A DNA stretch of 64,000 nucleotides from a bacterium (GTDB lineage Bacteria > Hydrothermota > UBA3073 > JACQXS01 > JAQTXJ01): NCBI GenBank assembly GCA_028716385.1, contig JAQUPX010000006.1, forward strand, positions 1 to 64,000, in the 5' to 3' direction. Shown piece after piece: positions 51,534 through 63,925 of this stretch (positions are counted from its first letter, which is position 1; every line of letters begins with the position of its first letter). The notes beneath the pieces were generated by a model, which saw nothing but the letters and a program-made list of their open reading frames with translations, made no database searches and was not told the DNA's origin. Both the position numbers and the translations under genes were made by a program.

Positions 51534-52379
51534 ATGAATAGGATACTAAAAAAACAGGTGTTAGCTCCGGGAATAAAGCTGTTTAATGTAGAAAACAAAG
51601 ATATTGCGGAAAAAGTTTTGCCGGGACAATTTGTGGTTATACGAGCTTATGAGCAAGGAGAACGAATTCCGCTTACCGTTGCAGACGTCGATAAAAACAA
51701 AAAATTTATTACTTTAATATTCCAGGAAGTTGGGCAATCTACTTTTTATTTCGGTTCCCTTAAAGAAGGGGATGAAATTTCAGACGTGGCAGGACCGCTT
51801 GGGAAACCTTCCGAAATTGAGTGCTTCGGCACCTGTGTTTGTATAGGTGGGGGGATTGGCATTGCTCCCGTTTACCCAGTTATCAAGGCGCTTAAAAACA
51901 AAGGCAATAAAGTAATTTCCATTATCGGCGCGCGAACGGAAGAGTTATTAATCCTTGAAAAAGAAGTTAAACAATTTTCGGACGAACTTTACATAACAAC
52001 AGATGACGCTTCTTATGGCAAAGAAGGAAGGGTATCTAACGAACTTTCAAGGCTTATAAAAGAGGGAATGAAAATTGACCGCGTCATAGCAATCGGTCCC
52101 GGGATAATGATGAAAACGATTGCCGAAATAACAGAGCCTTGTAAAATTAAAACAATAGTAAGTTTAAACCCCATAATGGTTGACGGGACGGGAATGTGTG
52201 GAGCTTGCAGAGTAGAAGTTGGCGGAGAGACAAAATTCGCCTGCGTAGACGGACCGGAATTTGACGCGCATCTTGTAAATTTTGACCTCCTTATGAAACG
52301 ACAAAGAATGTACACTATAGAGGAAAAAGAGTCTTTAGGTTCCCTGGAAAAAAATAAAAAACTTTTTAAATCCAAATAA
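51534..52379 (+). CDS. Sulfide/dihydroorotate dehydrogenase-like FAD/NAD-binding protein (NfnA/SudB-like)
   Basis: GQFVVIRAYEQGERIPLTVAD; CVCIGGGIGIAPVYPV; C-terminal MCGACRVEVGGETKFACVDGPEFD. Confidence 0.92.
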   Translation: MNRILKKQVLAPGIKLFNVENKDIAEKVLPGQFVVIRAYEQGERIPLTVADVDKNKKFITLIFQEVGQSTFYFGSLKEGDEISDVAGPLGKPSEIECFGTCVCIGGGIGIAPVYPVIKALKNKGNKVISIIGARTEELLILEKEVKQFSDELYITTDDASYGKEGRVSNELSRLIKEGMKIDRVIAIGPGIMMKTIAEITEPCKIKTIVSLNPIMVDGTGMCGACRVEVGGETKFACVDGPEFDAHLVNFDLLMKRQRMYTIEEKESLGSLEKNKKLFKSK

Positions 52380-52381
52380 AT

Positions 52382-53773
52382 ATGGCAAAACCCATCCTAA
52401 AAAAAGTCCCGATAAGCGAACAATGTCCCGAAGAAAGGATAAAAAATTTCAACGAAGTCCCTTACGGATATGTTCCCGGCGAAGCAATGAAGGAAGCAAA
52501 AAGATGTTTGCAATGCAAGAACGCCCCCTGCATAACCGGTTGTCCCGTAGAAATAGATATTCCGGGGTTTATAAAAGCAATAGGTGACGGGAATTTCAAT
52601 GACTCAATAAAGATTTTAAAAGAAAAAACCGTTCTCCCTGCTGTATGCGGAAGAGTATGTCCACAGGAAGAACAATGTGAAAAAGTTTGCACTCTGGCTA
52701 AAATCGGAGAACCGGTTGCCATAGGAAGACTTGAACGTTTTTCTTCTGAATGGGAAGCACAACAGAAAACAACAGACATCCCCAAAACACCAAAATCTAC
52801 CGGAAAAAGAGTTGCGGTTGTCGGATCGGGGCCTGCCGGATTAACTATTGCCGGAGACCTTGCTATGTTGGGGCATAATGTAGTTATTTTTGAAGCATTA
52901 CACCAGCCCGGCGGGGTATTGATTTACGGGATACCGGAATTCAGGTTGCCAAAAGCTATTGTTGAAAGAGAAATAGAATATATTAAAAAACTGGGAGTGC
53001 AAATAATTACTTCTTTTGTTGTAGGAAAAACCAAAACAATAGAAGAACTTCTTAAAGAATTTGATGCGATTTTCGTAGCTGCCGGAGCCGGACTCCCTTG
53101 GTTTATGAATATACCTGGCGAAAATTATAACGGGATATATTCTGCAAATGAATACCTCACAAGGGCAAATCTTATGAAAGCATATTTATTCCCGGAATGG
53201 GATACTCCGATTATTAAAGGAAAACGAGTTGCCATAATCGGTGGCGGAAATGTTGCAATGGATTCTGCGAGAACGGCTCTTCGCCTCGGAGCTGAGCACT
53301 CAATGATAATTTATAGGCGTTCAGAAAATGAAATGCCCGCAAGACTGGAAGAAATAATCCACGCGAAAGAAGAAGGAATAGAATTTCATTTCCTTACTCT
53401 GCCTGTTCAATATTATGCAGATTATTTAGGCTGGGTAAATAATATGGAATGCATAAAAATGGAACTTGGAGAACCGGATAGTTCCGGAAGAAGACAACCG
53501 ATTTCAATAAAAGATTCTAATTTTAAAATTCCCGTAGATGTAGTAATTGTAGCAATAGGCAATTCGCCTAATCCGTTAATTACAACTACCACGCCCGGTA
53601 TTGAAATAAGCAAAAAAGGGACTATCAAAATAAATGAAAAAACGGGCGAGACTTCAAAACCTCGTGTATATGCGGGAGGAGACGTTGCAACGGGCGCAGC
53701 AACCGTTATACTGGCAATGGGAACGGCGAGGATAGCGGCAAAGTCAATACATAATTTACTACAAAACAAATAG
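52382..53773 (+). CDS. gltA: NADPH-dependent glutamate synthase small-subunit-like flavoprotein (NfnB/GltA-like)
   Basis: CLQCKNAPCITGCPVEIDIPGFI, VAVVGSGPAGLTIAGDLA, VAIIGGGNVAMDSARTALRLGA. Confidence 0.94.
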   Translation: MAKPILKKVPISEQCPEERIKNFNEVPYGYVPGEAMKEAKRCLQCKNAPCITGCPVEIDIPGFIKAIGDGNFNDSIKILKEKTVLPAVCGRVCPQEEQCEKVCTLAKIGEPVAIGRLERFSSEWEAQQKTTDIPKTPKSTGKRVAVVGSGPAGLTIAGDLAMLGHNVVIFEALHQPGGVLIYGIPEFRLPKAIVEREIEYIKKLGVQIITSFVVGKTKTIEELLKEFDAIFVAAGAGLPWFMNIPGENYNGIYSANEYLTRANLMKAYLFPEWDTPIIKGKRVAIIGGGNVAMDSARTALRLGAEHSMIIYRRSENEMPARLEEIIHAKEEGIEFHFLTLPVQYYADYLGWVNNMECIKMELGEPDSSGRRQPISIKDSNFKIPVDVVIVAIGNSPNPLITTTTPGIEISKKGTIKINEKTGETSKPRVYAGGDVATGAATVILAMGTARIAAKSIHNLLQNK

Positions 53774-53910
53774 GCCTTTATTATTTTTTTATTTACAAAA
53801 AGCAAAAACCAAAAGAGAAAAGTTGACAATATAAAAATAACATATTATGAACTCTGCTTTAGTATAAATATAAGGGAAAAGAGCTTATTTATTGGAGAAA
53901 AGGGGGAAAT

Positions 53911-55185
53911 ATGAATGCTTTTGAGATGGCACAAAGGCAGTTTGATGAAGTTGCAGACCAGCTTAAGCTTAGCAAATCTGCTCGTGCAATAATGAGAGAA
54001 CCGTTAAGAGAATTCCATTTTAATATACCCATAAAAATGGACGATGGTTCTATTAGAGTGTTCAGGGGTTTCAGAGTTCAGCACAATGATGCAAGGGGCC
54101 CAAATAAGGGTGGACTTCGTTTTGCGGCAAATGAAACGATTGACACCGTAAAAGCTCTTGCTACCTGGATGACGTGGAAATGCGCAGTATCCGACATCCC
54201 ATTGGGTGGAGGAAAAGGTGGAATCGTCGTTGAACCTGCAAGTCTTTCGGATGGAGAAAAAGAAAGATTATGTCGTGGTTGGATAAATCAGATGTGGAAA
54301 AATATTGGGCCTTTAATGGACGTTCCCGCTCCTGATATAGGCACAACACCTCAAATGATGGGCTGGATGATGGATGAATTTTCAAGATTAACCGGAAAAT
54401 CTTATCCCGGCGTAGTTACCGGGAAACCATTAGGCGGCGGCGGTTCGCTCGGAAGAACGGCAGCGACCGGGTTCGGCGTAATTGTTACCGTCCGTGAAGC
54501 CCTTAAAGAATTAAAACTTCAGGCAAAAAATTGCAAAGCATCAATTATGGGATTTGGAAACGTATCCCAATATGCGGCAATAAATTTCATAAAGCTTGGC
54601 GGGAAAGTTGTTTGCGTATCATACTGGAACAGACACGATAAAAAATCTTATACCGTAAGTAAAGATAGCGGAATTGACCCTATTTTCTTACAATCAATTA
54701 CCGACCAGTATGGAGCCATAGATAACAAAAAAGCAATGGCTAAAGGATATAAAATAGAATCTGCAGATGCATGGTTATCAAAAGATGTGGAAGTCCTTAT
54801 CCCGGCAGCATTAGAAGGAATAATCACGGGGGACACGGTAAAGAGAATAAGTTCCAAAGTCAGGATTATAGCCGAAGGTGCAAATGGACCAACAACTCCG
54901 GAAGCAGATGCGGTAATAAGAAAAAACCCAAAGATATTGCTTATCCCTGATTTCCTATGTAACGCAGGTGGAGTAGTTTGTTCGTATTTCGAAGGAGTCC
55001 AAAACAATATGAACTTCTACTGGAGCGAAAACGAAGTAAATGAAAAATTAGATGAGAAGATGACAGTTGCATTCCATAAGGTTTTGAAAATGTCAAAAGA
55101 GAAAAAGACTTATATGAGAAATGCAGCTTATATGGTAGCAATAGATAGCGTTGAAAAAGCTATGAAGTTAAGAGGCTGGATTTAA
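53911..55185 (+). CDS. gdhA: Glutamate dehydrogenase (Glu/Leu/Phe/Val family)
   Basis: FRVQHNDARGPNKGGLRF, ALATWMTWKCAVSDIPLGGGKGGI, IIAEGANGPTTPEAD. Confidence 0.95.
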   Translation: MNAFEMAQRQFDEVADQLKLSKSARAIMREPLREFHFNIPIKMDDGSIRVFRGFRVQHNDARGPNKGGLRFAANETIDTVKALATWMTWKCAVSDIPLGGGKGGIVVEPASLSDGEKERLCRGWINQMWKNIGPLMDVPAPDIGTTPQMMGWMMDEFSRLTGKSYPGVVTGKPLGGGGSLGRTAATGFGVIVTVREALKELKLQAKNCKASIMGFGNVSQYAAINFIKLGGKVVCVSYWNRHDKKSYTVSKDSGIDPIFLQSITDQYGAIDNKKAMAKGYKIESADAWLSKDVEVLIPAALEGIITGDTVKRISSKVRIIAEGANGPTTPEADAVIRKNPKILLIPDFLCNAGGVVCSYFEGVQNNMNFYWSENEVNEKLDEKMTVAFHKVLKMSKEKKTYMRNAAYMVAIDSVEKAMKLRGWI

Positions 55186-56010: not shown

Positions 56011-56129
56011 GATTATCTATTCTACCAAGATCATAATAATGTATAACCTAAAATGTATATTCTTTTGTTACCGATTGTTCTCCTCTATTTCCCCTTAAAA
56101 TTCTCCGATGCAAACACTCCACTCATTCC

Positions 56130-56285
56130 CTAGTTTTCCTTCAGTTGCTCGTTTATAATAATACACACCGCTTCTTTGGGACAATCTAAAGTCTTAGTTA
56201 ATATATCAGTAATTTCTTCTGTAATCCTTTGCTTCTGTTCCACGCTTACCTTTCTCTGCTGTAAATTCATTGTTATTATTGGCAT
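56130..56285 (-). pseudogene. Truncated 4-oxalocrotonate tautomerase-like paralog
   Basis: MPIITMNLQQRKVSVEQKQRITEEITDILTKTLDCPKEAVCIIINEQLKEN then TAG where the intact paralog has W (KENWGVGG). Confidence 0.7.
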
Positions 56286-56475
56286 AATTGCCTCCTAAAT
56301 AAATATTCAAAACGATCTGAATCTATTGTCTTTAAAGCAACAAATTTGAGATTTGTTGAACTACATAATATAAGAGTTATAAAAATATAACTTTTGCTCT
56401 CAATTTTATTCTCTTACCTCTCCCCCTAAAGTAGAATATTAAGGATAAAAAATTATGAATCGTTCCTTTATCTAC

Positions 56476-56685
56476 TCAGCAGGGATATTCAGCAGGAGAT
56501 ATTTCTGATACAAGCGTTCCACCAACACCCCAGTTTTCTTTTGGATGTTCGTTTATTATAATATGCACTGTTTCTTTTGGACAGCCTAAAATCTTATTTA
56601 CCGTATCAGTAATTTCCTTTACAACCTTTTGTTTCTGCGTCACACTTGTTTTTCCCTTCCATAAATCCATTGTTATTATTGGCAT
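56476..56685 (-). CDS. 4-oxalocrotonate tautomerase family protein
   Basis: MPIITMDLWKGKTSVTQKQKVVKEITDTVNKILGCPKETVHIIINEHPKENWGVGG; N-terminal Pro after Met. Confidence 0.9.
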   Translation of the reverse strand: MPIITMDLWKGKTSVTQKQKVVKEITDTVNKILGCPKETVHIIINEHPKENWGVGGTLVSEISPAEYPC

Positions 56686-56711
56686 AATTATATCACCTCC
56701 TTCTATGAATT

Positions 56712-58175
56712 CTAAGGTATATCTTCTATACCAATTAGTTTTATCCCAGTTATGTCTGCCACTTCTCTATTGAGAGATCTCAAATCATTTTTTGTTAACT
56801 TATAAATATCATTGTATCCGGCAAGCATTGTAAGAATTTTCAATTCATCAGCCATTACCGTTAGGAAATTTGCAATTCTTCGGGCACCTTCATCTACATC
56901 CAATCTCTCGGTTAGTTCTGGATCTTGAGTTGCTATTCCATATACACATTTTCCTGTATTGCATTGCTTACAAACCCTACAACCCAAAGATATAAGAGCA
57001 GCTGAAGCTATTCCCACAATATCAAATCCCATAGCAATAGCTTTTGCCGCATCTGCGCCTGTTTTTATACCACCGAGTAATATAAGTTTAATTTTCCCTT
57101 TCTTGCCTGAATCTTTAAGTGCCTTTACAGCAGGTGCAATACACCCTAACGTTGGAATACCTGCATGCTCTGTAGTAATTTCCGGAGAAGCTCCTGTGCC
57201 TCCCTCCATTCCATCTACAGCTATAGCATCTGGATTTGCTTTAGCCGCCGTTTTTACATCTTTGTATATATTTCCAGGCCCTAATTTAATTATTATTGGA
57301 ATTTGCCAATTGGTCACTTCTCGCAACAATTTAACATGTTTATCTAAATCTTCTGTTTGATTCATATCAAGATGTCTGCAAGGTGATAAAGCATCAGTTC
57401 CAAATGGTATACCTCTTATTTTTGATATATCAGGAGTAACTTTTTCGGCAAGAAGATGCCCCCCCATACCAGGTTTTGCGCCCTGTCCAATTTTTATCTC
57501 AATAGCACTTGCAGTTTTAAGATATTCAGTATTACATCCAAATCGCCCAGTTGACCATTGAACAATTAAGTTTTTAGCCAATTCCCTCTCTTTAGGGAAA
57601 GACCCTCCTTCCCCTGTATTAGCAGCAGAACCTACCTGAGCAGTTCCTTTCGCTAAAGCCATTTTAGCATTTTTGCTTATTGCACCATAAGACATAGCGC
57701 CAACTATAATTGGAATGTCTAAAATTAATGGGTTCTTTGCCCTACCTTCTCCAATTACAACTCTTGTACTACATTTTTCTCTGTATTTATCTACAGGAGT
57801 CTTAGAAAGTTGAGCGGGTACTATAATTATGTCATCTAATACAGGTAGTGGTCTTCCCGAACCATAGCTTCTCAACCCATATTTTTTAGTTTCCGCTTTC
57901 AAATGAATTGTTTCCACAACATCTGAGGTCCACGGACCTCTTGAAAATGACTCCGATGCTATTGGATCCACTATAATAGCTCTTACTGGACAATTCTCCT
58001 CACATATTCCACAACCTGAACATTTTTCTGGGTAACATGAAAATGGAGCCGGAAATGTTTCTCTAATTCTTTCTCCTAATGTTTCTGTAGGACAATTTTT
58101 CACACATAATAAACACCCAATACATTTATTTCTATCTATTTCTACACGGTAGGTTCTTCTATAAGTTCTAATCAT
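56712..58175 (-). CDS. Glutamate synthase FMN domain (GltB2-like) with N-terminal 2x[4Fe-4S] ferredoxin domain
   Basis: CIGCLLCVKNCP and CSGCGICEENCPVRA; DGMEGGTGASPEITTEHAGIPT; LLGGIKTGADAAKAIAMGFD; CRVCKQCNTGKCVYGIATQDP. Confidence 0.93.
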   Translation of the reverse strand: MIRTYRRTYRVEIDRNKCIGCLLCVKNCPTETLGERIRETFPAPFSCYPEKCSGCGICEENCPVRAIIVDPIASESFSRGPWTSDVVETIHLKAETKKYGLRSYGSGRPLPVLDDIIIVPAQLSKTPVDKYREKCSTRVVIGEGRAKNPLILDIPIIVGAMSYGAISKNAKMALAKGTAQVGSAANTGEGGSFPKERELAKNLIVQWSTGRFGCNTEYLKTASAIEIKIGQGAKPGMGGHLLAEKVTPDISKIRGIPFGTDALSPCRHLDMNQTEDLDKHVKLLREVTNWQIPIIIKLGPGNIYKDVKTAAKANPDAIAVDGMEGGTGASPEITTEHAGIPTLGCIAPAVKALKDSGKKGKIKLILLGGIKTGADAAKAIAMGFDIVGIASAALISLGCRVCKQCNTGKCVYGIATQDPELTERLDVDEGARRIANFLTVMADELKILTMLAGYNDIYKLTKNDLRSLNREVADITGIKLIGIEDIP

Positions 58176-58187
58176 TAGTATTCCTCC

Positions 58188-59534
58188 CTATATTTGTCTT
58201 TTTATAATTCTTAATTGTGTAGCGCCTCCACAAGACATACAAGGATCGTAAGCACGAATCACTTGTTCTATTTTTACTTTATCTTCATCAGAACAATCTC
58301 CTTTTTTACTATCAAGCACCTCTCTGGCTGATTCAAAAGTAGATCTTTCAATACTCCCCTGATGAAAAGTAGTAGGTGCAATTACTCTTGCTTTTTTCAC
58401 TATACCTTCATTATCAGTTTCGTATTGATGAAGTAATGCACCTCGTGGTGCCTCTACTATTGCTACTCCAATTCCATCTTTGGGATATGCAACATTTTTA
58501 ATGTCTTTATCTAAACCAGACGCAATAATATCTCTCATTCCTTTTATGCATTCAAACATTTCTGCTACCCTTGAGATATCATAACTCATTGCGGACTGTG
58601 TAAAAGTACCAAAAGTTTCCTTAAATTTGTGGAAAACATTGTTGTCCCACTTTGCATTCTGAATTCTTGCAACAGGTCCTACTCTAAATTGGCCATTATT
58701 GGGCCCCATACTTGTTATATAAGGATGCCTTATATAAGAATATTCTTTTTCTTCTTCGGTTATTCTCTCTAAAACTTCTGAAGATGACAAATATTCTTTG
58801 GTTTCATCTTTCATTAAAAGTTCCATAGAGTCATCATTGTAAAGTTCAAGTTTTTTACTTTGTTTAATTGCTAAGAAATTAGTTTCAATTTTTCCATAAG
58901 AAAGTAAAAAGTCTTTTTTCTCATTTATTATACGATAAGTATATTCTTCTATTGTTTTCATTGATTTAGTAGTAGCATCCAATAATGTCAAAATTTTATC
59001 TATTTCTTCTTGATTTAATGTTTTTAATACCCCGCCCGGGACAGATATGATTGTATGAACTTTTCTTCCTGCAATTATTTCACCTATTTGCTGTCCGATC
59101 ATTCGTAATTCTATACCTGCTTCAAGAAAATCCGGATATTTTTTCTGTAAATCTGTTATTGTGTTTACACCATCAATAAGTAAGCCAGGACCTGCAAGAA
59201 AAACAGTATGAAGTGCGTGACTGGAAAGAGTGTTTGCAAGCAACAACAATTCCCGTATCTTTTTTGCAGAGTCAGGAATATTAGTCTCCCAAGCATATTC
59301 TAATGCTTTACAGGCACAAATATTATGTGCAGCATAACAAATACCACAGATTCGCGCAGCTAATCCTGGAACTTCCGAAGCATGTTTTCCTTTAAAAATA
59401 GTATCGAATCCTCTCGAAGGTTCGGTAGCTATATACTCAGCCTTTTCTACTTTACCATATTTATCAACATAAATTGCAATAGAAGCATGCCCTTCTATTC
59501 TGGCAACATTTTCTATTGTAATTATTTTAGACAT
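58188..59534 (-). CDS. [NiFe] hydrogenase large subunit, group 3 (MvhA/HoxH)-like
   Basis: RIEGHASI, AARICGICYAAHNICACKALE (L1), APRGALLHQYETDNEGIVKKARVIAPTTFHQ, C-terminal AYDPCMSCGGATQLRI (L2 variant). Confidence 0.92.
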   Translation of the reverse strand: MSKIITIENVARIEGHASIAIYVDKYGKVEKAEYIATEPSRGFDTIFKGKHASEVPGLAARICGICYAAHNICACKALEYAWETNIPDSAKKIRELLLLANTLSSHALHTVFLAGPGLLIDGVNTITDLQKKYPDFLEAGIELRMIGQQIGEIIAGRKVHTIISVPGGVLKTLNQEEIDKILTLLDATTKSMKTIEEYTYRIINEKKDFLLSYGKIETNFLAIKQSKKLELYNDDSMELLMKDETKEYLSSSEVLERITEEEKEYSYIRHPYITSMGPNNGQFRVGPVARIQNAKWDNNVFHKFKETFGTFTQSAMSYDISRVAEMFECIKGMRDIIASGLDKDIKNVAYPKDGIGVAIVEAPRGALLHQYETDNEGIVKKARVIAPTTFHQGSIERSTFESAREVLDSKKGDCSDEDKVKIEQVIRAYDPCMSCGGATQLRIIKRQI

Positions 59535-60289
59535 TTTAATATTTCTCCTTTTTCTTTATCACTAAATTTTCTGAAATTTCTATAGAGAAAAATAGGTCCC
59601 CTGCAGCCCTCACATGACATATTTGCTTTTATACATCCAGCGTTACATCCTCCGATTGTTTGTCTTCCAAGACATAAATAACCTTGTTCCAAAAAACATT
59701 TTTTAGGGTCTGGGGCTTCCTCTAATAAAGTTTTCCATTTTCCTCCAGGTGGAATTGAAGGTGCTTTATAATTTCTCTCTCTAACACATTCATCGCAAAC
59801 TGTATGAGCAATTTCAGGGACAGGTCTTCCTTCAATTAATGCGAGAATAGTGTCTCTGATAATATCTGCTGGAGGAGGACAACCAGGAACAAAAAAGTCA
59901 ATATCAATAAAAGCTTTTGGTGAACATATTAAAGGATGAAGTTTGTGACCATGTTCTTTTAAATTATTTCCTTTATTCCCTTTGAATGGACTTTTAAGAT
60001 TCCCTAAACAAGCAATCCCACCAAAACAGGCACAAGACCCTAATGCAAGCACTTTTTTAACATGGGGAGCCATTTGTCTTAATAAGGATTCATCTTTATT
60101 GGTTAATATTGCTCCTTCTATTATTAAAAGGTCTGTCTCGGCTTCTATAGTGTCTGTAACTTTATCCATTAATAGGTAAGAATGAACAACATTAATTCCT
60201 CCTGCAAATATTGCTTTACCTACATCAAGAAGAGATACATGACACCCGGAACAACCACCTAATTGTATTGTAGAAACATTTACTGCCAT
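59522..60289 (-). CDS. [NiFe] hydrogenase small subunit (MvhG-like)
   Basis: IQLGGCSGCHVSLLD, LALGSCACFGGIACLGN, FVPGCPPPADII, C-terminal Fe-S cysteines. Confidence 0.92.
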   Translation of the reverse strand: MAVNVSTIQLGGCSGCHVSLLDVGKAIFAGGINVVHSYLLMDKVTDTIEAETDLLIIEGAILTNKDESLLRQMAPHVKKVLALGSCACFGGIACLGNLKSPFKGNKGNNLKEHGHKLHPLICSPKAFIDIDFFVPGCPPPADIIRDTILALIEGRPVPEIAHTVCDECVRERNYKAPSIPPGGKWKTLLEEAPDPKKCFLEQGYLCLGRQTIGGCNAGCIKANMSCEGCRGPIFLYRNFRKFSDKEKGEILKCLK

Positions 60290-60294
60290 AGCTT

Positions 60295-60933
60295 TTATTT
60301 ATAAAATGGTCTCAATTCTTTTGGAACTATTTTTTTTATATTATCTAACTGAAATTTTATTTTATTTTCAGTAAATAAAACTTCTAAGAAACTTTTATCG
60401 TCGCTGTTCAACTTTTGGATAATTGTGTTATTGCCGAGACTTGCTATTTTCCCCCCAACAAATATTCTTCCTTTAATCATCCAATCTCCTACCTTTTCTC
60501 CAATATTACCTAAAACTATAATATTCCCCCCGGTTAAATATAATCCCACAAAATCACCAGCAACTCCCTTTGTGAGAATCACTCCACCCTTACTGATTTG
60601 ACCAATGTTATTTCCTGCATTCCCATTGATAATAATCTGTCCCCCATACATATACATTCCTGCACCCTCACCACAATTTCCATTGATGATTATTTTCCCA
60701 CTTCGCATAGTATCCCCTACAAACCTTTTTGCATTTCCACTTAAAATTATGGATGCTCCATTATTTAAAGCACCTAAGAAATCACCTGCATGACCATTGA
60801 TGGCGATTTCTACATTTTCTTCCCACCCCACAGCAACAGAATCCTGGCTATTAATACCTACTACTACTGCCCTTTTTTTTTCAACTTTAATCTCATCATA
60901 TAAATATTTATTTAATCCTCTTGAATTTTCCAT
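60295..60933 (-). CDS. Glutamate synthase GXGXG domain protein (GltB3-like)
   Basis: Repeated GXXXGXXXXGGXIXXXGNXG beta-helix (GKIIINGNCGEGAGMYMYGGQIIINGNAGNNIGQISKGGVILTKGVAGDFVG). Confidence 0.92.
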   Translation of the reverse strand: MENSRGLNKYLYDEIKVEKKRAVVVGINSQDSVAVGWEENVEIAINGHAGDFLGALNNGASIILSGNAKRFVGDTMRSGKIIINGNCGEGAGMYMYGGQIIINGNAGNNIGQISKGGVILTKGVAGDFVGLYLTGGNIIVLGNIGEKVGDWMIKGRIFVGGKIASLGNNTIIQKLNSDDKSFLEVLFTENKIKFQLDNIKKIVPKELRPFYK

Positions 60934-60974: not shown

Positions 60975-61163
60975 TCACGATACATCCTTTTTTTTATTTC
61001 TCATATATTCTTGATGTTTAGAACATTTATGATACGATTCAGACAAACAATACTCCCCTTTTTCTGATTCGCTGGGAATGAATATCCTTTTTGAAAATGC
61101 TACACAATATTCAATAGTCATCTCTCTAAAGAATGGGCATTGCATTTTCCCGTACTTTAACAT
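60975..61163 (-). CDS. Small Cys-rich protein (Cys pattern C-x9-C-x17-C-x9-C)
   Basis: MQCPFFREMTIEYCVAFSKRIFIPSESEKGEYCLSESYHKCSKHQEY; first gene of the hydrogenase operon; start may be internal Met at about 61145. Confidence 0.6.
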   Translation of the reverse strand: MLKYGKMQCPFFREMTIEYCVAFSKRIFIPSESEKGEYCLSESYHKCSKHQEYMRNKKKDVS

Positions 61164-61188
61164 ATTTAAATGATATAGCAGGTATTAT

Positions 61189-61204
61189 AGCAAGTATTGT
61201 GTCA
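61189..61204 (-). promoter_or_regulatory. Candidate sigma-54 (-24/-12) promoter for the hydrogenase/GltB operon
   Basis: Minus strand TGACAC-AATAC-TTGCT against consensus TGGCAC-N5-TTGCW; immediately upstream of 61163 and beside a sigma-54 activator gene. Confidence 0.72.
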
Positions 61205-61472
61205 TTTTGATATGCCGAGACTATTAAACGTTTCTAACTACTTATTGTTCAAGAAGTTACGATTTTTATTATATTATCTTTTCTCGACATTTATTTTCGT
61301 AATTTATCTGAAGTGTTGAATTTTTGAACAATTTTTTATTGGAAAATATACACCTTGTAGGGTAAAAAGGTTATTTAGACGAAAAATTATAGGAAGACAA
61401 GTTATTGTAGTTTTTTTAAACAGTGCTGTGCAAAAATTCTACACCAGAGTAAATGGAAGATTTGGGAGGTTT

Positions 61473-62846
61473 TTAATAGGGCATTTCTCTTTTGGTTTTT
61501 ATTTTATACTTTCTGAGTTTGTTGTGCAATGTCCCCCGGTCTATTTTTAGCGCCAAAGCAGTTTTGCTTATATTACAATTAAGTTTTTTAAGGATAGTTA
61601 ATATATGCGCTTTTTCCATTGCTTCAAGCGAATCATCAAGCGGTAAGTCAACGGGAGTTTGCTTGTAAGTATCCTCCTGTATAACCTCGGACAAATGTTT
61701 TGGCATAATGATATCGCCTTTGCTCAGGATAACAGTTCGCTCAATAACATTTTCTAATTCTCTTATATTTCCCGGCCAATCGTATTTTACCATAAGACTT
61801 AACGCTTTTCTTGAAATTGATTTTATTTTCTTTTTCTCTTTAGTACAATATATCTTTAAAAAATGCTCAATCAAAAATGGGATATCCTCTTTTCTCTCTT
61901 TTAATAAAGGTAAGTCAATGGAAACCGCATTTAGCCGATAATATAAATCTTCTCTGAATGTTTTTTCAACTATAGCCTTTTTCAGGTCTTGGTTGGATGC
62001 AGAAATAACCCTAACATCTACTGGAATTATTTGTGTCCCCCCTATTCTCCGAAATTCCCTTTCTTGTAACACTCTCAATAAATCTACTTGTGCAGAGAGG
62101 CTCATTATTCCCACTTCATCAAGAAATACTGTTCCTCCATTAGCCATTTCAAACCTACCTATCTTTTGCTTATTAGCCCCGGTAAACGTTCCTTCCTCAT
62201 ATCCAAATAACTCGCTTTCTAACAAAGTTTCTGGTATAGCAGCGCAATTTATGGCAATAAACGGTTTGTCGCTACGCAAACTCCGAGAATGGATAGTTCG
62301 GGCAATAACCTCTTTCCCCGTACCACTGGCCCCCTGAATTAGTACTGTCGCACTACTTGGAGATATTACCTCAATCAAATCCCGAATGCGTTTCATTTTC
62401 GAACTTCTCCAAACAATGTGTTGAAAACCATAATGCTGTTTTAGTTGTTGCTTTAGATATATATTCTCTGCAATTAGTTCGCGTCTCTCGATTACCTTTC
62501 TCAGAGTAAAGTCTATTTCTTTCAGGGAAAACGGCTTAATCAAGTAGTCATATGCACCTTCTTTTATAGCCTCTACAGCACTTTTAACCGTAGCGAATGC
62601 TGTTATTATTATTACTACTACTTCCGAGTATATTTTCTTAAAAGCATGCATTACTTCTATACCATCCATTTCAGGTAGTTTAAGATCTACAAATGCTAAA
62701 TCAATTTTCTCCTTTTTCATTTTTTTGATACCTTCTTTCCCATTGCTTGCTATGAAAACTCTATATCCGCCTTCTTGTAGCCAGTCGGAAAGACTTTTCC
62801 TAAGAAGTGGTTCGTCATCTACAATCAATACTGTAAGCTTATTCAT
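61473..62846 (-). CDS. Sigma-54-dependent response regulator (NtrC/AtoC family)
   Basis: Receiver DDEPLLRKSL, AAA+ GASGTGKE, GAFTGA variant (EEGTFTGA), Fis-type HTH NISKTALALKIDRGTLHNKLRKY. Confidence 0.96.
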   Translation of the reverse strand: MNKLTVLIVDDEPLLRKSLSDWLQEGGYRVFIASNGKEGIKKMKKEKIDLAFVDLKLPEMDGIEVMHAFKKIYSEVVVIIITAFATVKSAVEAIKEGAYDYLIKPFSLKEIDFTLRKVIERRELIAENIYLKQQLKQHYGFQHIVWRSSKMKRIRDLIEVISPSSATVLIQGASGTGKEVIARTIHSRSLRSDKPFIAINCAAIPETLLESELFGYEEGTFTGANKQKIGRFEMANGGTVFLDEVGIMSLSAQVDLLRVLQEREFRRIGGTQIIPVDVRVISASNQDLKKAIVEKTFREDLYYRLNAVSIDLPLLKERKEDIPFLIEHFLKIYCTKEKKKIKSISRKALSLMVKYDWPGNIRELENVIERTVILSKGDIIMPKHLSEVIQEDTYKQTPVDLPLDDSLEAMEKAHILTILKKLNCNISKTALALKIDRGTLHNKLRKYKIKTKREMPY

Positions 62847-62857
62847 TATGTTATGCC

Positions 62858-63925
62858 TTATAATGGAAGCGTGATAGTAAAGGAAGTGCCTTTTCCTACC
62901 TCGCTACGAACATCAATGCTACCATTATGTCTTTTTATAATTTCGCAAGACACTGGTAAACCCAACCCTGTCCCTTTTCCTGCCTCTTTACTGGTATAAA
63001 ACAAATCAAACAAGTGAGGAAGTTTTTCTTCCGAAATGCCACATCCAGTATCTGTAATCTCCACTACAAACGACGACTTTGTCTTGACAAATTTTGAACA
63101 TATCATTAATTTCCCTCCGCTTTGCATCGCATCTAAGGAGTTGAGAATAATATTCACAAAAACCTGCCTAAGCTGGATATTATCAACTGTAATGTTTGGT
63201 AAATTGGGGTCTAATTTCTTTTCTATATTTACCTTTAGGATGAATGCTTGAGGCTCAATAAGAAATATTATGTCCTTTAAAACTTTATTTATGTTGGTAG
63301 GTGTTTTCTCAAACCCAACTTCTCGCGAGAAGTTTAAAAAATTCCTTGTAATATTCCCACATCTAATAACCTCTCCTTCCACACTTTTTAAATATTCCGT
63401 TACTATTTTAAGATCTTCCAAATTCGGAGAACGATTTTCAATTTTCTTTAGCACTATCTCTATCGCAGCCGAGATACCACTAAGAGGATTGTTAATCTCA
63501 TGCGCTATTCCTGCTGCCAATTTACCAACCGCAGCCAATCTTTCAGAATAAATCATTTCTTTTTCCAATTTTACTAATTCAGTGGCATCTCTAAAAACCT
63601 CTATAATTCCTGCTCCTTTGCCATTACAATCTCTTAGAAGAGATATATAGGAATTAATAGTAATTTTTTGCTTCTTTGCCGTTAAGATGTCCTTCTTGTG
63701 ATGATATGTTGGTTGACCAGTTCTTATTACTGTTTTAAGAGGACAATCTTTTTTACAAATAGAACCTTTAAATACATCTTTACATTTATGTTCCCTTACT
63801 GCATTAAGACAAAAACCTGTGATTCTCTCGGCTGATTTATTTAGATATATCACCCTTCCTTTTTTATCAACAACACAAACACCCTCATATATATTTTCTA
63901 ATACATTGGCCTCAAAGTTTTTCAT
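62858..63925 (-). CDS. PAS-domain sensor histidine kinase
   Basis: PAS N-terminus with Cys cluster (CKDVFKGSICKKDCPL), H-box GIAHEINNPLSGI, GKGTGLGLPVSCEII. Confidence 0.94.
   Translation of the reverse strand: MKNFEANVLENIYEGVCVVDKKGRVIYLNKSAERITGFCLNAVREHKCKDVFKGSICKKDCPLKTVIRTGQPTYHHKKDILTAKKQKITINSYISLLRDCNGKGAGIIEVFRDATELVKLEKEMIYSERLAAVGKLAAGIAHEINNPLSGISAAIEIVLKKIENRSPNLEDLKIVTEYLKSVEGEVIRCGNITRNFLNFSREVGFEKTPTNINKVLKDIIFLIEPQAFILKVNIEKKLDPNLPNITVDNIQLRQVFVNIILNSLDAMQSGGKLMICSKFVKTKSSFVVEITDTGCGISEEKLPHLFDLFYTSKEAGKGTGLGLPVSCEIIKRHNGSIDVRSEVGKGTSFTITLPL

Follow-up and report, generated by a model that had tools for sequence, protein, structure and literature searches.

Promoter recognition by sigma-54 (RpoN) is regarded as varying hardly at all. 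A key, nearly invariant position of sigma-54 promoters is the second G in the -24 element, and R456A is a standard dead allele of the sigma factor. Hydrogenase operons are known to be placed under sigma-54/NtrC-family control, as by HoxA and HupR. In Escherichia coli, R456A abolishes promoter binding and stops binding of the -24 element (PMC7175178, PMC3459932), and the mutant is unable to direct transcription (PMC3459932). The locus analyzed here lies in a window of 64,000 nucleotides from a WOR-3 genome (G000) and shares with the HoxA and HupR systems an NtrC-type two-component regulator beside hydrogenase genes. It differs from them in that the hydrogenase is of the Vhu/Mvh type and is joined to GXGXG and GltS-like proteins, that no regulatory hydrogenase was seen in the operon and that the leader gene encodes an undescribed cysteine protein. 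As in other sigma-54 systems, RpoN is encoded in the genome and an NtrC-type activator adjoins the site. The same arginine of the RpoN box that is replaced in the E. coli R456A mutant is lost from the main RpoN of the WOR-3 class to which the genome belongs; the E. coli mutant is dead for transcription, whereas threonine is the wild-type residue in the class and is accompanied by many apparent promoters.

The putative promoter, TGACACAATACTTGCT, is located at 61189-61204 on the minus strand and matches TGACAC-N5-TTGCT letter for letter, as reported in the initial annotation. Compared with the sigma-54 consensus (TGGCAC-N5-TTGCW), the site has the TGxCAC core, the GC doublet of the -12 box (TTGCT, 61189-61193, in agreement with TTGCW) and the 10-bp spacing between the two doublets, and it fits TGNCAC-N5-TTGCW exactly. 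The single mismatch falls in the -24 box (61199-61204), whose doublet is GG in the consensus and GA in the window site; GA is also found in roughly one in three promoter-like sites of G000. Because the GG doublet is absent, the site was classified, based on sequence and conservation, as a variant rather than a canonical sigma-54 promoter. Transcription is predicted to start at about 61176-61179, and the gene for the small cysteine-rich protein follows the site at a distance of 26-41 bp. When two mismatches are allowed, the window shows no excess of matches over shuffled sequence (26 observed, 20.9 expected), but matches with up to one mismatch are in excess across the genome (101 vs. 39 for a reversed-pattern control), and the letters alone are therefore not decisive for the site. 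Palindromes in the upstream region where activator sites are expected (61205-61472, minus strand) did not exceed those in shuffled sequences. The corresponding region of a second WOR-3 genome (G006) contains three copies of a sequence like TGTnTAATnnTTATnnA, spaced about 60 bp apart, which is no more than suggestive of enhancer sites.

The site had been placed just upstream of the first operon gene; the position holds, but the first gene encodes the cysteine protein and not a hydrogenase subunit. The genes of the operon and of the two-component system are all on the minus strand. The small leader protein contains four cysteines (60975-61163; 62 amino acids from 61163, or 56 from the ATG at 61145) and is followed by a GXGXG-domain protein of the GltB C-terminal/FwdC type (60295-60933; PF01493, 2.5e-20; NCBIfam FwdC and GltB), the NiFe hydrogenase small subunit of the Vhu/Mvh G type (59522-60289; PF01058; best NCBIfam match VhuG), the large subunit of the Vhu/Mvh A type (58188-59534; PF00374; best NCBIfam match VhuA) with the cysteine pairs RICGICxxxH and DPCxxC, and, as the product of the last gene, a GltS-like protein that combines a glutamate-synthase FMN domain with two 4Fe-4S motifs (56712-58175; PF01645, 1.8e-115; Fer4). 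From the cysteine gene onward, neighboring genes are separated by 5-41 bp or overlap slightly. The large subunit ends in DPCMSCGGATQLRIIKRQI, without the histidine that usually follows the last cysteine pair, and its G006 counterpart is alike in this respect. Downstream of the operon (56100-56700) lie two short minus-strand frames starting with MPIITM that look tautomerase-like by eye, and an NfnA/NfnB-like pair (sulfide/dihydroorotate dehydrogenase-like plus GltA type) and a glutamate dehydrogenase are encoded at 51534-55185, convergent with the operon. Glutamate dehydrogenase is also encoded near the G006 operon and after the cysteine protein in G002.

Upstream of the operon and in the same orientation, coordinates and Pfam matches bear out the sigma-54 activator and the PAS histidine kinase that had been assigned there. 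The NtrC-type activator (61473-62846; Response_reg, Sigma54_activat 4.6e-70, HTH_8) has a receiver domain, an AAA+ domain and a Fis-type HTH. The GAFTGA loop is present in the G006 counterpart (translated by eye), whereas the window protein has GTFTGA at this position. The kinase (62858-63925) is a cytosolic protein with PAS_4/PAS_9, HisKA and HATPase_c domains (Pfam). A cysteine-rich motif (CKDVFKGSICKKDCPL) lies within its PAS domain (63700-63800) and could take part in redox sensing.

A search with the hydrogenase large subunit against 147 WOR-3 genomes identified a single true ortholog, in G006 (74% identity). The gene order in G006 is that of the window (kinase, regulator, cysteine protein, GXGXG protein, small subunit, large subunit, GltS-like protein), and the matching place reads TGGCACAGTATTTGCTATATC (promoter TGGCACAGTATTTGCT), a perfect TGGCAC-N5-TTGCT consensus. 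The comparison of orthologous loci that had been proposed as a check thus finds the promoter kept, again downstream of a two-component system of this kind. At the -24 doublet the G006 ortholog has GG and G002 has GT, compared with GA in the window.

The cysteine protein (pattern CPFxEE..YC..C..Y..C; 60975-61163 in the window, loci L199-L208 elsewhere) has no match in Pfam or NCBIfam. At E<=0.01 it matches proteins in 30 further WOR-3 genomes, with doubt attaching to the weakest matches. The match falls within a frame of 350-390 amino acids in some genomes, possibly a fusion to a longer protein. Eleven cysteine-protein loci (the window, G006 and nine further loci) were scanned for promoters within 200 bp upstream of the gene. 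In all of them the best -24/-12 site is found 24-53 bp before the start and the TGC of the -12 box is invariant; in 10 of the 11 the score of the best site was reached by at most two of 500 shuffles that keep base composition only, the exception being G102 (11/500). An NtrC-type regulator and/or kinase is located directly upstream at every locus except that of G004 (10/11), and the seven regulators tested with Pfam are all Sigma54_activat response regulators. Several of the loci continue downstream into redox operons (glutamate dehydrogenase, NuoE/F-like and Hdr-like proteins, identified by eye from translations). From these sequence comparisons, the cysteine protein is a candidate for an undescribed leader of sigma-54-type redox operons in several WOR-3 genomes. 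The G006 ortholog and the nine further loci lend support to a sigma-54 promoter that links the operon to the two-component system, and 61189-61204 is very probably the sigma-54 promoter of the hydrogenase/glutamate-synthase operon. Weighing against this assignment are the near-chance motif count for the window, an extended -10 that shares letters with the -12 box, the outcome of the palindrome comparison and the GTFTGA loop of the activator.

The initial annotation regarded a genome without rpoN as fatal to its reading; G000 carries two copies, and that objection therefore falls away. RpoN1 (G000:C1:682590-683045, L001) contains the AID, CBD and DBD domains and an RpoN box that reads ARTTVVKYR, and RpoN2 (G000:C2:419833-420288, L002) contains CBD and DBD domains, no recognizable AID, and the box ARRTVAKYR. 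The latter is identical to the E. coli box, and an alignment with solved E. coli chains places the threonine of RpoN1 at the position of R456, so that the canonical arginine is missing from RpoN1 and present in RpoN2. The box ARTTVxKYR was found in all 14 genomes of the class with a readable main RpoN box (G000-G009, G011 and G013-G015). Outside the class, the RpoN boxes that were read in the phylum are RR boxes, in a survey that covers part of the genomes of the phylum and in which a few matches (e.g., G052 and G055) were unresolved by pattern; the box of G028 is TRRTVAKYR, and this genome is hence not a T-box genome. In the RpoN tree the T-box proteins form one clade and RpoN2 of G000 falls inside it on a long branch. 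The nesting of an RR protein within the T-box clade suggests that the arginine was probably regained after duplication, with the long branch making the placement less sure. Beyond what had been annotated, the -24 box is off consensus at the nearly invariant G alongside a class-wide change in RpoN.

Genome-wide matches in G000 sort into TGGCAC, TGACAC and TGTCAC, nearly always with TTGCT, and the promoter-like sites carry G, A or T at the variable -24 position with roughly equal frequency, C being nearly absent. Sites of the pattern TGACACR-N4-TTGCW number 64 in the class (about 32 Mb) and 20 in the other genomes (about 49 Mb; P = 2.5e-11), the compared genomes being bins of varying completeness, and the ratio of TGACAC to TGGCAC sites is 64:65 in the class and 20:136 outside. 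The positions of the sites differ as well. Placement was judged on the flanks by an ORF rule rather than by gene calls, the cut being set at 160 codons once the data had been seen. Under the strict form of the rule 29 of 36 TGACAC/TGTCAC sites in G000, G004 and G014 are located upstream of genes; a form that tolerates a short 5' extension of the downstream frame gives 33 of 36. Only 2 of 20 TGACAC sites in RR-box genomes of the phylum are so placed (P = 4e-7 or 1e-9), with 18 of 20 in coding sequence; the rule as first applied by eye had given 33/36 vs. 1/20. TGGCAC sites in the other genomes are upstream of genes in 19 of 20 cases, and such sites also remain in the T-box class. In G000 a FlgE/F/G-type flagellar gene follows a TGACAC site, and TGGCAC sites precede an activator gene and a rod-like gene. 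The variant promoter form appears to be normal in the class and the changed sigma factor is most likely the reason; taken together, these sequence data point to a lineage-wide relaxation of -24 recognition.

Alternatively, the operon could be driven constitutively from a sigma-70 promoter whose extended -10 is TGCTATAAT (61184-61192), the likeness to sigma-54 being accidental. TGCTATAAT is a perfect extended -10 and overlaps the -12 box, but no -35 partner was found by scan and TTGCTATA-like tails are frequent after -12 boxes in G000. The TATAAT of the window is TATATC in G006, so that the sigma-70 reading is not conserved, and the hexamer is lost in G002 and G020, whereas the -24/-12 pair is kept in all of these genomes. 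A sigma-70 promoter was rejected on the missing -35 and the lack of conservation, and is very improbable. Use of RpoN2 at the site, with a degenerate T-box RpoN, is more improbable still: RpoN2 exists, has CBD and DBD domains and an RR box and could serve some sites, but it has no recognizable activator-interacting domain, was not found in G001 or G006, is nested in the T-box clade with a long branch and, given its canonical box, should favor GG over GA.

The site may instead be a sigma-54 promoter of which TGACAC is a weak, degenerate copy, with the excess in the class caused by A/T mutational drift or by the motif of another regulator and the sigma factor unchanged in its specificity. This would agree with the restriction of the T box to one clade, with the coexistence of TGG sites and with the A+T-richness of the window (judged by eye, for the window only). 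Against drift, TGCCAC sites are few and mostly coding, whereas TGACAC and TGTCAC sites keep TTGCT and lie 11-290 bp before genes; in RR-box genomes the placement of TGACAC sites is not promoter-like; within G000 the flagellar gene follows TGACAC and the rod-like gene TGGCAC; and in E. coli, -24 binding stops when the residue that is changed here is lost. A degenerate copy is accordingly rather unlikely. A natural, lineage-wide change of sigma-54 specificity, in which the class combines R456T with a -24 base that drifted to G, A or T and one lineage duplicated rpoN and regained the arginine in the copy, is the reading that we favor with some reservation. That R456T itself caused the relaxed -24 is likewise held to be fairly probable; the change from R to T is a single event shared by descent, and the link is for this reason one of correlation plus known biochemistry.

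If the RpoN holoenzyme uses 61189-61204 as a functional -24/-12 promoter, a single message would cover the whole operon, from the cysteine leader and the GXGXG protein through the two hydrogenase subunits to the GltS-like flavoprotein. RNA polymerase would wait in a closed complex until the PAS kinase phosphorylates the NtrC-type regulator, which would then bind upstream and open the complex by ATP hydrolysis, so that the operon would follow a signal, probably redox or nitrogen state. Control of the operon by the adjoining kinase and regulator is suggested by their conserved adjacency. The A of TGACAC would be tolerated because the main RpoN of the class carries threonine at the R456 position and may no longer read the second G of the -24 box strictly.

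No paper on natural R456 variants or on WOR-3 sigma-54 was found in the open literature, subscription journals being mostly outside the search. If true, a class with a natural threonine and a -24 box that followed would represent a natural experiment on the co-change of a sigma factor and its promoters, and standard prediction based on TGGCAC would miss about two thirds of such sites in G000. At the same time, signal-dependent control would extend to an unusual hydrogenase/glutamate-synthase unit and to its cysteine leader, which is undescribed.

Two further RpoN families of the phylum deviate in their C-terminal region. The RpoN of family f6 (L109, G010:C46) ends after the HTH and lacks the RpoN box, and a C-terminal RpoN query gave no match in either genome of this family. 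In family f10 (L112-L115; G019, G024, G030 and G035) the RpoN box is SRRMVTKLR, which is off consensus, and TGGCAC-TTGCA sites are kept.
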